Source: Massilibacillus massiliensis (GTDB taxonomy: Bacteria > Bacillota > Negativicutes > FLKF01). Taken from it: 64,000 nucleotides of DNA. The stretch covers positions 1,445,534 through 1,509,533 of the forward strand of contig NZ_LT575483.1 in assembly GCF_900086705.1 (NCBI RefSeq). Reading direction: 5' to 3'. Position 1 is the stretch's first letter. Every line of letters starts with the position of its first letter. Below, in pieces: positions 32,602 to 38,488 of the stretch. The translations under genes were made by a program, and so were the position numbers. The notes under the pieces are model-generated. The model made no database searches and was not told where the DNA came from. It saw nothing but the letters and a program-made list of their open reading frames with translations.

Positions 32602-33897
32602 TTAGAATTGGAATTCGATACGACCGAATACTTTTTCTACATCATTTTCACCATTAATTTTTTCACCATCAAAGTAAACAAGTTTAGCTAAGATGTTTTT
32701 ATCAAGCATGTAATCCACGCCAACTTCTGTACCTTTTTCAGCGAAACCAACACCATCATAAGTTGGAGCAACAGAAGCAAATGAACCGATTTGACGATAT
32801 GCTACCCATGCACCGAAAGAACCTGGTGCATTAGATTCTGCACCTTTATAAGTTAATTGTACACTATATGCGTCTTCATTGTCATCATTTGTACCTTCAG
32901 CTGCATCTAAACTAGATTGTGCATATAAACCACCGAAAGTAAGATTATTGTTAAATTTGTAATCAAAACCTAAATTCCAAATAGAATTGGTATCATCTAC
33001 CCCTTCACCATCTAGGAATCCTACACTATTACGAAGATTGTAATATCCAGCACCTAATGAAAGTTTATTTGTTGCATCATATCCAAATTGGATTGCTGCA
33101 TAATCACTTGTACCATAAAGATTTGCATCCGTATTAGTCAATCTTTTAACTTCATCATTTGCTGAATAATTATCACCATGTAAACGTCCAACAGTTACTA
33201 TAGTTTTTAATGCCTTTCCAAATTGGAATTCAGCACCACTAACTTCAGTATCCATGATTAAACCGCCGTTAGTTAAGTGTTCAGCATCAAATGTGCCGAA
33301 TTTACCTAATTTTGCATTTGCACCAAATAATGGTCCTTCTGCATAGGCTTGCTTAAGTTCTGTATCTCTATCGGAACTATCATTATCTAAATCAGCTTCA
33401 GATTCAAAACGAGCTTTTACTGCCCAATCATCATTTACGGCAGCATTCATGTCTAAACGAATCGTGCCTGTAGCTTCGCTTCCATCGTCATGACTATCAA
33501 TTTCTGTATGCGTACCATCTAAACGTAAGAAACCAGTGAATTTCACGTTGTCAGTTTTCTTTTCAAGCGCTGAAACACGAACACCTAAGTTGTTTAATTC
33601 ATCTGCATATTCTGCAGATAATTTGTCAATTGTAGCTTTGTTTGATGAGCTAACGCCTTCTTTAGCCATAGCTTTTGCTACCATTTGAGCCATTTCATAA
33701 CGCGTAATTTTTGCATCACCACGGAATGTGTTATCGCCATAACCTTCGATTACACCTTCGTGTGCTAATTTAGCAACTGCATCATAAGACCAATGGTCTG
33801 TTGGTACATCGCTAAATGGATTTGCAGCAGCAAATGTTGTGCTTGCTGCACCGATTACGAGTGCTGAAGTGATTGCAGCAACAAGTGTTTTTTTCAT
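32602..33897 (-). CDS. ompM: OmpM-type SLH-domain porin
   Basis: The 431-residue protein has a signal peptide ending TFAAA, then one SLH domain (NPFSDVPTDHWSYDAVAKLAHEGVIEGYGD..., about 26-80). A coiled-coil linker (KATIDKLSAEYADELNNLGVRVSALEKK) precedes a 16-strand-like beta barrel ending in the outer-membrane C-terminal phenylalanine IEFQF. In Negativicutes these proteins form pores, and the SLH domain ties the outer membrane to polyamine-modified peptidoglycan. The N-terminal 125 or so residues are almost identical to those of the upstream paralogue, while the barrels differ. The leader carries the shared motif at 33965-33982. Confidence 0.93.
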   Translation of the reverse strand: MKKTLVAAITSALVIGAASTTFAAANPFSDVPTDHWSYDAVAKLAHEGVIEGYGDNTFRGDAKITRYEMAQMVAKAMAKEGVSSSNKATIDKLSAEYADELNNLGVRVSALEKKTDNVKFTGFLRLDGTHTEIDSHDDGSEATGTIRLDMNAAVNDDWAVKARFESEADLDNDSSDRDTELKQAYAEGPLFGANAKLGKFGTFDAEHLTNGGLIMDTEVSGAEFQFGKALKTIVTVGRLHGDNYSANDEVKRLTNTDANLYGTSDYAAIQFGYDATNKLSLGAGYYNLRNSVGFLDGEGVDDTNSIWNLGFDYKFNNNLTFGGLYAQSSLDAAEGTNDDNEDAYSVQLTYKGAESNAPGSFGAWVAYRQIGSFASVAPTYDGVGFAEKGTEVGVDYMLDKNILAKLVYFDGEKINGENDVEKVFGRIEFQF

Positions 33898-33908
33898 GAG
33901 AAAATCCC

Positions 33909-33949
33909 CCTTAAAATAAATAATATTTTTTTGAGCCTTTACTTTAAGG
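33909..33949 (-). promoter_or_regulatory. Possible ribosome-site-masking hairpin, ompM leader
   Basis: On the mRNA, CCUUAAA (33949-33943) can pair with UUUAAGG (33915-33909), which overlaps the ribosome site UUUUAAGGGGG. The pairing is short but exact. Similar complementarity is seen in the other two porin leaders. Confidence 0.35.
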
Positions 33950-33964
33950 TGAGAACGAATTTTA

Positions 33965-33982
33965 GAGTATCCACGTTTCCTC
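33965..33982 (-). promoter_or_regulatory. Conserved porin leader motif, copy 1
   Basis: GAGGAAACGTGGATACTC in the 5' region, 68 bases before the ompM start. The other two SLH porin genes have it with 16-18 of 18 bases identical. Confidence 0.65.
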
Positions 33983-34024
33983 TTAAACTTTTCTCCCCTA
34001 TTAAGTTCCAGCTCTGTATATAAG

Positions 34025-34046
34025 ATATACTTTAAATAAAGTATAT
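34025..34046. promoter_or_regulatory. 22-bp perfect palindrome upstream of ompM
   Basis: ATATACTTTA-AA-TAAAGTATAT has exact 10-base arms around AA, about 130 bases before the start in the promoter region (33898-34231). Related half-sites (AAAGTGTAT, AGTATA) lie nearby. It looks like an operator for a dimeric regulator. No regulator gene is in the window. Confidence 0.45.
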
Positions 34047-34184
34047 ACTCATATCTAAACTAAAGATAAAGTGTATGTAAAAATCTTAATAAATACTTAA
34101 CCTTTATTTGACAATCACTTTACTTTTAGTATAATACCACTTTTTCTCATGGAAAACAATAGACAAATTTCAAAATTCTCATAA

Positions 34185-34218
34185 AAAAGGACCTTCTGCC
34201 TAAACAGAAAGTCCTTTT
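34185..34218 (-). terminator. Terminator of the second OmpM gene
   Basis: The AAAAGGAC-TTTCTG / CAGAAGGTCCTTTT stem is followed by TTTTTAT on the minus strand, 14 bases after the stop. Confidence 0.88.
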
Positions 34219-34231
34219 ATTATAGTTATTC

Positions 34232-35551
34232 TTAGAAGGAGAATTGCAGACGACCGAAGATTTTTTCAACATCTTTATCGCCATCAACTTGTTCACCATC
34301 AAAGTAGTTTACATATGCCATGATATTTTTATCTAACATATATTGTGCTCCAAATTCAACACCTTTTTCACCATAGCCAACGCCATCATAAGTTGGGTGG
34401 AAAGATGCTGCTTCACCGATTTGACGATATGCAAGCCACATTCCAAAAGATCCAGGAGCACTTTGTTTAACACCTTTATAAGTTAATTGTGCACCATAAG
34501 ATTCTTCTATATCGCTATCTTCAGCATCAATATCAGATGCTGCATACAAAGCGCCAAAAGTAAGAGTTTTATTTAATTTATAATCAAAACCTAAATTCCA
34601 AATATTATTTGTGTCTTCGTCACTACCAAAAGCACTATCATTTTTTAAGTGATGATAACCAGCACCAATTTTCAATTTATCCGTTGCTTTGTAATCAAAT
34701 TGAATTGCTGCATAATCACTAGTACCATAATAGCCAGCACCATCAGGACGAGCTACACCTGCATCATCAGCTTTTTTAGCTGCTTTAGCTGCATTAGATG
34801 TAAAATCATAATCGCTTTGTGCAAGGCGACCAAGAGTTACTGTAGTTGTCAATGCATTGCCCTTCCAAGCAAATTCAGCACCTTCTACTGGATTATCTAA
34901 AAGCAAACCGCCATTTGTGTAACCAGCGTTATCAAATCCACCGAATTTACCTAATTTTGCAGTTGCGCCAAATAAAGGACCTTCTGCATACACACGTTTT
35001 ACTTCAGTTTTTCTGTCTTTAGATGAAAGATTATCATTGTCAAGATCTGCATCGGAATCAAAACGAGCTTTTACTGCCCAGTCGTCATTTACAGTAGCTG
35101 TCATATCTAAACGAACTTTAGCGGTAACAGCACTTCCATTATCTACATTATCAGTTTCTTTATGGCTACCATCTAAACGTAACAAACCATTAAATTTCAC
35201 GTTGTCAGTTTTCTTTTCAAGAGCTGAAACACGAACACCTAAGTTGTTTAATTCATCTGCATATTCTGCGGATAATTTGTCGATTGTAGCTTTGTTTGCT
35301 GAGCTAACGCCTTCTTTAGCCATAGCTTTTGCTACCATTTGTGCCATTTCATAACGAGTGATTTTTGCATCGCCACGGAATGTGCCATCGCCATAACCTT
35401 CGATTACACCTTCGTGTGCTAATTTAGCAACTGCATCAAAAGACCAATGATCTGTTGGTACATCGCTGAATGGATTTGCAGCAGCAAATGTTGTGCTTGC
35501 TGCACCGATTACTAGTGCTGAAGTGATTGCAGCAACAAGTGTTTTTTTCAT
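34232..35551 (-). CDS. ompM: OmpM-type SLH-domain porin, paralogue
   Basis: The 439-residue protein has the same layout as the gene at 32602-33897: signal peptide, SLH domain (26-80), coiled-coil linker and barrel ending GRLQFSF. The signal peptide, SLH and linker differ from its neighbour at only a handful of positions, while the barrel shares blocks (YDKxILxKLxYFDGE-type) with many changes and an extra loop (TSNAAKAAKKADDAG). It has its own promoter (35704-35732), leader motif (35632-35649) and terminator, so the two porins can be regulated separately. Confidence 0.93.
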   Translation of the reverse strand: MKKTLVAAITSALVIGAASTTFAAANPFSDVPTDHWSFDAVAKLAHEGVIEGYGDGTFRGDAKITRYEMAQMVAKAMAKEGVSSANKATIDKLSAEYADELNNLGVRVSALEKKTDNVKFNGLLRLDGSHKETDNVDNGSAVTAKVRLDMTATVNDDWAVKARFDSDADLDNDNLSSKDRKTEVKRVYAEGPLFGATAKLGKFGGFDNAGYTNGGLLLDNPVEGAEFAWKGNALTTTVTLGRLAQSDYDFTSNAAKAAKKADDAGVARPDGAGYYGTSDYAAIQFDYKATDKLKIGAGYHHLKNDSAFGSDEDTNNIWNLGFDYKLNKTLTFGALYAASDIDAEDSDIEESYGAQLTYKGVKQSAPGSFGMWLAYRQIGEAASFHPTYDGVGYGEKGVEFGAQYMLDKNIMAYVNYFDGEQVDGDKDVEKIFGRLQFSF

Positions 35552-35631
35552 GAGAAAATCCCCCTTAAAAATATAAAATAATTTTTTCGAGCTTTAAATT
35601 TTAGGAAAGATTTTCCGACAAAAAATTTCTA

Positions 35632-35649
35632 GAGTCTCCATGTTTCCTC
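35632..35649 (-). promoter_or_regulatory. Conserved porin leader motif, copy 2
   Basis: GAGGAAACATGGAGACTC, 81 bases before the start and about 48 bases after the predicted transcription start. Confidence 0.65.
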
Positions 35650-35703
35650 ATAAATATTTTTTATCTTCTCATCTTTTCCATCTATGTAACGCTCTTATTT
35701 CGA

Positions 35704-35732
35704 ATTCTACATGATAAATCACAAGTTTGCAA
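35704..35732 (-). promoter_or_regulatory. Promoter of the second OmpM gene
   Basis: -35 TTGCAA (35732 to 35727) and -10 TAGAAT (35709 to 35704) are spaced by exactly 17 bases. The predicted start is near 35697. The rest of 35552-35858 is the leader and AT-rich sequence. Confidence 0.7.
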
Positions 35733-35858
35733 GCAAATAATTGGAAGAATGATTAAAATTTTGTTAACTTTCTGTTATTTTTCAAAAATAATTAAATAAT
35801 TGCTCTAAATAATACAAATAAATGCCATAAGTTCCTAAATATTTAGGGCTAAAACGAT

Positions 35859-36275
35859 CTAAACGTGCTTTTTACTTCCGTAATAACGTTCGGCTAAAAT
35901 AACAGCTACATAATCATCTACTGGTACCGGTGGAACTTGCATCCCCGTAGGAATCAAACGTCTTAAACCACGTGGCGGATGACTTTGCCAATAACGAATT
36001 TTTGCGGCATCCGTTGTCCGATATTCTTCTACGAGTTCAATCTTAACATCTGAAGGTGTAGTACTTTTTTCCACTTGCTGCTTGGCTGTATCACTGGAGG
36101 TTCCATTTCCTAAAAGAATTTTTTCTATTTTATATTTTTCGAGTAGTGTTTTTATTTTATTTTCTAAATCTATTGTAAAAATAACTTCTTGATATAAAAC
36201 TTTTTTGCTTTGTTCAACAACTGCAATTCCGCATTTTTCTCTGCCCGGATCAATAGCAATCACTTGGGTTGGCAT
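35859..36275 (-). CDS. YqgF/RuvX-like RNase H-fold nuclease
   Basis: The 138-residue protein has IAIDPGREKCGIAV (5-18), the first acidic strand of the RNase H fold; IEKILLGNGTSSDTAKQQ; and the final DDYVAVILAERYYGS with acidic residues. It resembles YqgF/RuvX, which matures 16S rRNA ends, and resolvase-like relatives. The basic central insert (PPRGLRRLIPTGMQVPPVPV) is typical of a Negativicutes/Clostridia subgroup. It stands alone between two porin genes. AGAAGGTGA precedes the ATG. Confidence 0.75.
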   Translation of the reverse strand: MPTQVIAIDPGREKCGIAVVEQSKKVLYQEVIFTIDLENKIKTLLEKYKIEKILLGNGTSSDTAKQQVEKSTTPSDVKIELVEEYRTTDAAKIRYWQSHPPRGLRRLIPTGMQVPPVPVDDYVAVILAERYYGSKKHV

Positions 36276-36370
36276 AATTTCACCTTCTATTTTTTCTCAG
36301 TCTATCATCTATACTGTACGCATTCGATAGCTTAAAGTCAATAATGATATAATCTTTCCGCCCCAAGCCG

Positions 36371-36418
36371 CATTCATCCTTCGGAACGTATTTTTCCGGA
36401 AAAAGCCGGGGACGAAAA
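36371..36418 (+). repeat. Truncated copy of dispersed repeat family A
   Basis: It matches the last 48 bases of the family A copies at 38305-38488 and 60321-60503 (CATCCTTCGGAACGTATTTT...CCGGAAAAAGCCGGGGACG). The rest of the element is missing. It sits downstream of yqgF and beside the terminator of the third porin. Confidence 0.8.
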
Positions 36419-36425
36419 GCAAACG

Positions 36426-36456
36426 AAAGCCGCCGCACTGAATGTGCGGCGGCTTT
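36426..36456 (-). terminator. Terminator of the third SLH porin gene
   Basis: The stem AAAGCCGCCGCAC / GTGCGGCGGCTTT is exact with a 5-base loop. Few U follow on the minus strand, so it may be processing- or Rho-linked. Confidence 0.75.
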
Positions 36457-36490
36457 GTGTTCAAGAATACTTCTCTTTGGATGTTATTTT

Positions 36491-37624
36491 TTAGAATTTT
36501 ACGTTTAGATAAGCTGCTGTACGATCTTGGTTTTTGTCGCCAGCTTGGTTTTTGAAGTCTTGGTATTTAAGAGTTAAAGTTGTGTTGTCAGCAACTTCTC
36601 TTGTATATTTGTATTCCATACCTTTGTAGCCTTCATTGAAGAAAGATACATTACTGATATCACCAGAATTGTTGGAGTAGTTTGTAACTGCGCCAGCTTC
36701 AACATCTTTATAAGTTGCAGATAAGCCAAGTTTGTTGAAGTTTACGCCGTAAGCGATTGCATCATCACCGGAATTATCTTCTTTGTTGTATTCTGCATTT
36801 AAGCTAACATTTTTCACTAAGTCAAAGGATGCATTTGCACCATAGAATTCTTTGTCTGTACCATCAGTTGCTTGTGCATCAGCTTTGATATAGTTCAAGT
36901 TAAAGATACCACTTTGTAATTCAGCACCATATAAACGATCTTTTTCACTTGTTTGGTTACCAGCAAATACTTTTAAGCCACCAATTTCAGATTGGATACC
37001 ATTGATTTTATCGTCTAAAATCATACCAGTACCTACAAGAACATCTTGACGACCAATTGTGTTTTCTAAGCCAAGTGCATGGAAACCTACATTTGCAGTA
37101 TCTAATTTGATACCATCAGACTCGCCATTGTAAGAAATGTTACCACTGGATAAACGAGTGTTGAATGTTAAATCATCGTTAATTTTACCTGTAACACCAA
37201 TACGTGCTCTGAAATCAGTATCATCGCTGCTATTATCGGTAGCACCGTAACGAATACGAGCGTCACCAGTAATTTTTGCACGTTCTTGTTCTGCTTTTAC
37301 TTCATCAACTGCAATACCCATATCTTTTAATTCACTGGAAAATTCTTTTGCTAATTTTTCTACTGTTGCTTTTTGATCACCATCTAAATCTTTGTGCATA
37401 GCTTTTGCTACCATTTGTGCCATTTCATAACGAGTAATTGTTTTATCTCCTTGGAAAGTGCCATCGCCATAGCCTTCAATTACTCCATCTTTTGCAAGTA
37501 CTTCTACTGCATCATATGCCCAGTGTCCTTGTTCAACATCAGCAAATGGATTTGCAAATGCAGGTACTGCAAACGCTACTGTAAGTGCAGTCGTAACTGC
37601 CATTTTTAATAAACTCTTTTTCAT
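36491..37624 (-). CDS. SLH-domain outer-membrane porin (divergent OmpM-like)
   Basis: The protein has 377 residues: a signal peptide (KMAVTTALTVAFAVPAFA), SLH domain (NPFADVEQGHWAYDAVEVLAKDGVIEGYGDGTFQGD), coiled-coil linker (KATVEKLAKEFSSELKDMGIAVDEVKAEQ), and a shorter barrel ending AAYLNVKF with C-terminal Phe. It differs strongly from the two OmpM proteins and has a smaller barrel, so probably a different pore. The start is ATG 37624; the open frame extends 21 codons upstream without a ribosome site. The leader contains the shared motif at 37720-37737 and a CCCTTG that can pair with the ribosome site CAAGGGGG. Confidence 0.9.
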   Translation of the reverse strand: MKKSLLKMAVTTALTVAFAVPAFANPFADVEQGHWAYDAVEVLAKDGVIEGYGDGTFQGDKTITRYEMAQMVAKAMHKDLDGDQKATVEKLAKEFSSELKDMGIAVDEVKAEQERAKITGDARIRYGATDNSSDDTDFRARIGVTGKINDDLTFNTRLSSGNISYNGESDGIKLDTANVGFHALGLENTIGRQDVLVGTGMILDDKINGIQSEIGGLKVFAGNQTSEKDRLYGAELQSGIFNLNYIKADAQATDGTDKEFYGANASFDLVKNVSLNAEYNKEDNSGDDAIAYGVNFNKLGLSATYKDVEAGAVTNYSNNSGDISNVSFFNEGYKGMEYKYTREVADNTTLTLKYQDFKNQAGDKNQDRTAAYLNVKF

Positions 37625-37719
37625 TGTCTTCGAGATCCCCCTTGAATTTTTTCTTAAAATTTTGCCTGGCCTATGGCCGACATCCAAGGGACTTGCATTT
37701 GATCCTTACAACTTTTACT

Positions 37720-37737
37720 GAGTATCCACGTTTCCTC
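37720..37737 (-). promoter_or_regulatory. Conserved porin leader motif, copy 3
   Basis: GAGGAAACGTGGATACTC, identical in all 18 bases to copy 1 although the genes are otherwise diverged; it lies 96 bases before the start. Confidence 0.65.
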
Positions 37738-37869
37738 AAGCAAACATTATAATCATCTCTTGCTGTCTCTTGTTGTCCCTACAGCTTTTTTGTAGGTATG
37801 TACGAAGAAATTTTCAAGGTAGGTTCTATTTTATTGAAACTATATGTGGAAACCATATGTGGGAGATAT

Positions 37870-37888
37870 CAGACTGACTAGTCGTTCA
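37870..37888. promoter_or_regulatory. Operator-like site, left member of an inverted pair
   Basis: CAGACTGACTAGTCGTTCA is itself a near-palindrome centred on ACTAGT, the form of many TetR-family operators. An exact reverse complement lies at 37986-38004. Confidence 0.45.
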
Positions 37889-37910
37889 GCGCTGTGTATT
37901 TTATTTCATG

Positions 37911-38216
37911 TTTACATAATTCTATTTTTCTATCAAAACTCCTGCTTATAAGTGCGTGTAATTATTTCCATATTTCTCGGTATTTTGAACGACTAGTCAG
38001 TCTGACAAGAAATCAATTTGAATTCTTTTATATTTACATAATTCTATAAATCTTTTCTTTTTCCTTCTTAAACTTCTGTGTAATTTTTTCCATATACCTT
38101 GGTATAATCAATCTTATGTGTTGTAAATAAAATTGATTCGCTTTGATTTTATATTTACATAATTCTTTATTTCTTCTTATTCTCCTGCTTTTATAGGTTG
38201 GTAATATATGTAACAC
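37911..38216 (-). repeat. Decayed ~121-bp direct tandem repeats upstream of the third porin
   Basis: The block TTTACATAATTCT starts at 37911, 38033 and 38154, a constant 121-122 base step. Between them, other blocks recur in order (TTTCCATAT, and TTGATT-like), while the rest has diverged. One unit could encode a 19-residue basic peptide, but the frame is not kept in the others. Tandem promoters or a decayed insertion array are possible. Confidence 0.6.
37986..38004. promoter_or_regulatory. Operator-like site, right member of an inverted pair
   Basis: TGAACGACTAGTCAGTCTG is the exact reverse complement of 37870-37888. The two 19-base copies lie in facing orientation with 97 bases between them. 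Confidence 0.45.
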
Positions 38217-38304
38217 TATATTGCTTTCAATTAAAAAAAGTCCATGGCATTACAGCTACGAAGCATACCATGAATTCTCGCATACTACTAACCTTTAAGA
38301 CCTT

Positions 38305-38488
38305 TCTTTTGGCATCGCATCAAAAGAAACAAAAATGCTAGGCCTAAGGCCTCCAAAATACTTGAAAAAAGACTGACTTGCTAAAATCCTTAGCTCGCTT
38401 CGCTCAGACAAACGGATTTCTTCACGCAAGCCAGCCTTTTTTCATCCTTCGGAACGTATTTTTCCGGAAAAGGCCGGGGAACGAAAAA
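38305..38488 (+). repeat. Dispersed structured repeat family A, full copy
   Basis: It shares about 180 bases with 60321-60503. It contains three stems: TTTCTTTTG/CAAAAGAAA; the long outer stem GACTGACTTGC/GCAAGCCAGCC around AAAATCC...GGATTT; and TTTTTCCGG/CCGGGG. Several stem positions differ between copies on both sides so that pairing is kept. No protein is encoded. The intervals 38217-38304 and 38489-38567 hold nothing else recognised. Confidence 0.8.

Follow-up and report, generated by a model that had tools for sequence, protein, structure and literature searches.

In Escherichia coli, the ompA 5′ leader acts as a stabiliser, with a hairpin close to the 5′ end of a message that encodes an abundant outer-membrane protein, and in Thermus thermophilus the slpA 5′ untranslated region is said, in work by Castan and colleagues that appeared in J Bacteriol in 2001, to be a site of multiple regulation. 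In most diderm Terrabacteria, the outer membrane is anchored to the wall by the OmpM and SlpA porins, which are considered ancestral (PMC10628300); among the papers searched, we found none on the control of OmpM/SlpA porin synthesis and nothing helpful on Veillonella 5′ ends or sRNAs or on the Thermus slpA leader. A structured RNA described near such genes is the ‘SLH motif’, a riboswitch candidate found from Thermovirga lienii, for which 80 examples have been described from Synergistaceae, Clostridia and Negativicutes, with SLH genes following about 60% of them (Stav et al., 2019, PMC6429828).

The 64,000-nucleotide stretch of Massilibacillus massiliensis DNA analyzed here (the window) carries three SLH porin genes on its minus strand: porin 1 (OmpM-type, 431 aa, 32602..33897, Pfam SLH 2e-14), porin 2 (439 aa, 34232..35551, Pfam SLH 1.2e-14) and porin 3 (377 aa, 36491..37624, Pfam SLH 7.6e-13 and Porin_4 2.3e-8). 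Porin 1 is 69% identical to porin 2 and only 31% identical to porin 3, in line with the strong divergence that the original prediction had ascribed to the third gene. Scanning of the window confirmed the three predicted motif sites, two exact copies of the 18-mer GAGGAAACGTGGATACTC (33965-33982 and 37720-37737) and one copy with two mismatches, GAGGAAACATGGAGACTC, at 35632-35649, all on the coding strand of the porins; the distances from motif to ATG, anticipated as 68-96 bases, were measured as 68, 81 and 96 bases for porins 1, 2 and 3, respectively. The Shine-Dalgarno sequence AAGGGGG lies at 33906..33912 (porin 1, outside the hairpin described below), 35560..35566 (porin 2) and 37637..37643 (porin 3), likewise on the minus strand. 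Zero occurrences of the 18-mer were expected from 100 shuffles of the window, and a search of both strands of the whole own genome (4.0 Mb) at up to three mismatches returned only the three window sites, so the motif is not equally frequent elsewhere in the genome.

The own genome contains nine SLH matches; six of these lie outside the window (near 758446, 763233, 1874103, 1919811, 2163432 and 3218341) and are likewise SLH porins. The element was absent from all six, both in their upstream sequences and in a search with a covariance model (R1), an observation beyond the original prediction; therefore, common ancestry among SLH porins does not account for the motif, and these six genes together with the cross-phylum spread reported below rule out inheritance by close paralogues as the source of the motif identity. 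This suggests two regulatory classes of OmpM-like porins within one genome. The region around porin 3 also carries several repeats. A perfect 20-nt inverted repeat, TCAGACTGACTAGTCGTTCA / TGAACGACTAGTCAGTCTGA, is located upstream of the gene at 37869-37888 and 37986-38005, 97 nt apart, and its core GACTAGTC resembles a TetR-family operator (a resemblance only); interleaved with it at 37901-38226 are three 83-nt direct repeats, 60-72% alike, with a spacing of 121-122 nt. A 40-nt repeat of 98% identity, possibly a dispersed repeat element, is found either side of the porin 3 gene region, at 36373-36412 and 38441-38480.

Folding placed the motif at the apex of a long hairpin, which the original prediction had not described. 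The leader hairpins of the three genes, all on the minus strand, span 33933..34014 for porin 1 (MFE −25.7 kcal/mol, z −4.28, 0/200 shuffles as good; R1 41.2 bits, E 1.9e-10, R1 E-values being rough), 35604..35679 for porin 2 (MFE −19.6 kcal/mol, z −3.21; R1 41.6 bits) and 37687..37770 for porin 3 (MFE −19.7 kcal/mol, z −2.09; R1 42.1 bits), and they share one loop. In general, the element is an imperfect hairpin of about 75-85 nt, in which a GAG/CUC stem (sometimes AAG/CUU; general form R-A-G / C-U-Y) closes the 12-nt loop GNAACNNGGANA. The conserved apex of porin 1 comprises the 3-bp GAG/CUC stem and the 12-nt loop, identified, as for porin 3, by window scan, genome scan and loop comparison, and that of porin 2 by window scan and loop comparison. 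Among fetched loci, folding revealed hairpin arms that were entirely different between loci, their sequence varying freely and their pairing being kept.

To quantify this pairing, the motif was kept and only its flanks were shuffled: 50 leaders had a mean of 24.4 enclosing pairs versus 13.2 with shuffled flanks (Stouffer z −17.5), and the mean pairing was about 0.5-0.8 over some 31 nt of the left arm and 33 nt of the right arm, with weak spots near −5/−6 and −16/−17. The flank-shuffle z was −8.0 in Deinococcota, −7.4 in Atribacterota, −10.3 in Halanaerobiales and −15.5 in other Bacillota, compared with −1.1 for chance pattern hits used as a folding control. In a gapless MAFFT alignment built with no fitting to structure, standard pairs accounted for 53.8%, versus 45.1 ± 0.9% in shuffles, and each slid register gave a lower value, a comparison that leans somewhat in favour of the chosen register, which was picked from the predicted pairing of the same sequences. 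Similarly, in a gapless alignment of 192 distinct elements (<80% identity), Watson-Crick pairs were above chance (z = 20.5), and the outermost motif pair was GC in 178, AU in 14 and mismatched in 0 elements, the sites having been gathered with a pattern that allowed G/A and C/T at the two motif ends independently. The GU-versus-AC comparison for the sense strand gave ratios of 0.84 and 0.77, which are not decisive alone. Conservation across several phyla, specificity for porin genes and compensatory pairing strongly uphold the proposal of selection on the leader element.

Analysis of 104 model-found elements gave the loop consensus G-N-A-A-C-N-N-G-G-A-N-A, with positions 4, 6, 7, 8, 11, 12 and 15 invariant, position 13 nearly so, position 5 mostly A, and positions 9, 10 and 14 free; both differences of the porin 2 apex from the other two window copies fall at the freely varying positions 9 and 14. 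In total, about 15 bases of the element are fixed and near-invariant across phyla. The loop layout is mirror-like (5+2+5), the mirrored partners being G4/A15, A6/A13, A7/G12 and C8/G11 (13 nearly invariant), with variable 5 facing variable 14 and variable 9 paired off with variable 10. This conservation pattern suggests a folded purine-rich tip and not an open loop, in which G.A and A.G pairs may form and a C-G pair may close a two-base turn.

Regarding the position of the hairpin in the transcript, a consensus scan (9/12) predicted a sigma-70-like promoter of porin 2, TTGCAA-17-TAGAAT, at 35704..35732 on the minus strand, which would begin the RNA about 20 nt ahead of the hairpin and so, as originally argued, would place the motif in the transcribed leader. 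Across 205 upstream regions, 64 −10-like boxes ended 31-70 nt upstream of the motif, versus about 18 expected, and a comparable excess was found in no other upstream stretch. Because of this enrichment and the 31-nt left arm, the hairpin would lie directly at the predicted mRNA 5′ end or no more than about 35 nt from it. Downstream, in 28% of leaders the Shine-Dalgarno sequence had a pairing of >0.5 with the hairpin region, being therefore not consistently sequestered, and a run of six T was present in 24 of 188 leaders. Neither signal is uniform, so no common terminator or Shine-Dalgarno switch is visible in these leaders.

To a large extent the element is shared by related bacteria, as the 18-mer pattern at up to two mismatches matched 200 of 300 same-class genomes, with a reversed-pattern control near zero. 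A scan of 84,980 species with GAGGAAACNNGGANACTC yielded at least 120 stretches; the matches listed include true leaders in Negativicutes, Halanaerobiales, Atribacterota, Trueperaceae and Thermus, as well as in a Limnochordia MAG, a UBP9 MAG and several Bacillota MAGs, and about forty chance hits, mostly within genes of unrelated phyla, which were set aside by context and reused as the folding control mentioned above. At a threshold of E 0.01 per genome, R1, which was trained on some sequences of the searched groups, most genomes being new to it, matched 259 of 300 Negativicutes genomes (none in about 14%), 42 of 199 genomes sampled across the whole phylum Bacillota, 52 of 111 Deinococcota genomes (about half without a match), 38 of 50 Atribacterota genomes and, as a control, 3 of 201 Chloroflexota genomes, one of these three being a centre genome picked for its motif hit; the class and phylum names in these counts rest on named loci and downstream proteins. 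The Negativicutes count shows that the motif is not absent from the porin leaders of relatives. Copies per genome ranged from about 1 to 10. Thermus-like and Trueperaceae-like genomes typically had one R1 match each, and the element may have been lost or have diverged in other Deinococcota lineages such as Deinococcus. No tie to a porin gene was found for the Chloroflexota and Desulfosporosinus hits; two Desulfosporosinus genomes, presumably of monoderm bacteria, share tccaRccggaGAGGAAACCGGGAAACTCgccccaataY, with no downstream ORF found. Rfam 15 gave no gathering-level match in the window and no match at the element with E up to 1 at 8 loci.

Where the core was recognisable, nearly all inspected R1 hits were followed by genes for outer-membrane beta-barrel proteins or SLH porins. 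For such hits in Bacillota, secreted beta-barrel or SLH protein genes were downstream in nearly all cases; in fetched Negativicutes loci, the motif stood before MKK...-type signal peptides of SLH porins and sometimes of SLH-less porins. An SlpA-type SLH protein gene was downstream in almost every inspected case in Deinococcota, where the hairpin apex lies about 32-48 nt before the start of Thermus SlpA-type genes, and an SLH protein gene followed in Atribacterota. The majority of inspected sites preceded SLH porins and the remainder mostly SLH-less porins; in a set of 31 downstream proteins, selected to be mostly SLH-less, nine matched Porin_4, a few matched other beta-barrel families and the rest had no Pfam match. 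Since SLH-less porin genes are also preceded, the element is a porin-class leader and not SLH-specific. The start codon followed the motif at a median distance of 72 nt. At three loci, AAG/CUU-type hairpins were located about 260 nt before the next porin start, far beyond the usual distance, where either a short gene or an extended leader may lie in between.

Judged from the hairpin, its kept pairing, the conserved loop and the position before porin genes, all of them features of sequence, the element is best described as a cis-acting leader RNA, and the original wording, an RNA element controlling porin levels, named the right class for what is a candidate controller; overall, the original interpretation was partly supported. 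With moderate confidence, we propose that the motif is the recognition tip of this leader RNA at or near the porin mRNA 5′ end, docking a putative conserved trans-acting factor. The loop would be the docking site, and the factor would most likely be an RNA-binding protein other than CsrA or Hfq, which may stabilise or repress the porin mRNA from its 5′ end and could thereby match porin synthesis to envelope demand. A factor of this kind, acting on mRNA stability or translation, is favoured because no common switch is visible and because CsrA and Hfq are lacking in several hosts. Among 22 element-bearing genomes, the own genome and 12 further hosts encode CsrA, which was not found in nine, including Thermus altitudinis, Veillonella infantium, Dialister micraerophilus and Acidaminococcus; Hfq was not found in nine of the 22, with Thermus, Trueperaceae, Veillonella and Dialister hosts among these; and neither protein was found in the isolates Thermus altitudinis, Veillonella infantium and Dialister micraerophilus. 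Therefore, neither CsrA nor Hfq is the universal partner.

The distribution of CsrA bears directly on the idea that the leader is a CsrA-binding site: the invariant GGA of the loop (A13 nearly so) and the CsrA-bearing hosts would suit it, but the nine hosts in which CsrA was not found refute it as the universal mechanism, and we regard it as highly improbable. Pairing of a trans-acting small RNA with the loop, through a GAGTATCC complement as originally suggested, is very unlikely too. Porin mRNAs are classic sRNA targets in enterobacteria, and the loop is exposed; however, the GAG/CTC ends form the stem, within one genome even paralogues differ at loop positions 9, 10 and 14, Hfq was not found in the hosts named above, and no other site within three mismatches exists on either strand of the own genome, a search that excludes long complements only. 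Least credible is a double-stranded DNA operator for a transcription factor, for which the near-promoter location speaks, since the element lies downstream of the predicted promoters and its variable yet complementary arms of about 31 nt fit an RNA stem.

A riboswitch that binds a metabolite, the role put forward by Stav et al. (2019) for the SLH motif, would account for the strongly conserved loop and would have a published candidate of matching gene context and overlapping taxa on its side. We nevertheless consider it unlikely, as the element is a single hairpin in which about 15 bases are fixed and no expression platform common to the leaders is visible, and the inconsistent Shine-Dalgarno sequestration and the few T-runs favour a trans-acting factor over a riboswitch with such a platform. 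We see an equally small chance that the hairpin is a constitutive 5′ mRNA stabiliser of the ompA-leader type, working with no regulator and keeping its loop for its own stability. Its 5′-proximal position, its long stem and the abundance of porins agree with this, but fifteen near-invariant bases across phyla exceed the needs of a stability hairpin, and common stable tetraloops replace the 12-nt loop in no examined element, the searches being loop-anchored, so that elements with the whole loop replaced would escape them. Traces similar to those of the docking site that we prefer would also be left by a purely structural 5′ stabiliser or a small-molecule aptamer.

The same hairpin before porin genes in Veillonella, Thermus and Atribacterota looks like a very old porin control element. 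Tentatively, one porin-leader RNA family and a dedicated RNA-binding factor may date back to the common ancestor of the diderm Terrabacteria (Deinococcota, Atribacterota and diderm Bacillota) and may still couple the synthesis of porins and outer-membrane tethers to the envelope state. A leader RNA common to Thermus slpA-type, Atribacterota and Veillonella porin genes offers a testable handle on porin control in tractable hosts, brings a regulatory trait into the debate over how old the outer membrane is, and provides a protein-independent sequence tag for porin annotation in MAGs.

Compared with known systems, the element is, like the SLH motif, a structured RNA and candidate cis-regulator upstream of SLH-domain genes, which follow the majority of inspected sites, in Negativicutes and other Firmicutes classes. 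Unlike the 80 examples in the published description (PMC6429828), it occurs in many more genomes, extends to Deinococcota and Atribacterota, and also precedes SLH-less porins. Identity with the SLH motif of Stav et al. (2019) is possible, the two having been compared by their descriptions; we do not file the element there because the smaller published count, the lack of Deinococcota in that description and the lack of Synergistota among the GAGGAAACNNGGANACTC matches listed here leave doubt. CsrA-repressed leaders likewise present GGA in a leader hairpin loop, but the present element also occurs in hosts in which CsrA was not found. The E. coli ompA leader is, like the element, a 5′-proximal hairpin on an outer-membrane protein mRNA, and with no shared sequence, loop or phylum it is a case of similar working and not a member. 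The Thermus thermophilus slpA leader also belongs to an SLH outer-membrane protein gene, and Thermus SlpA-type genes here carry the hairpin apex; the slpA work of Castan and colleagues reportedly concerned a single species, unlike the present element.
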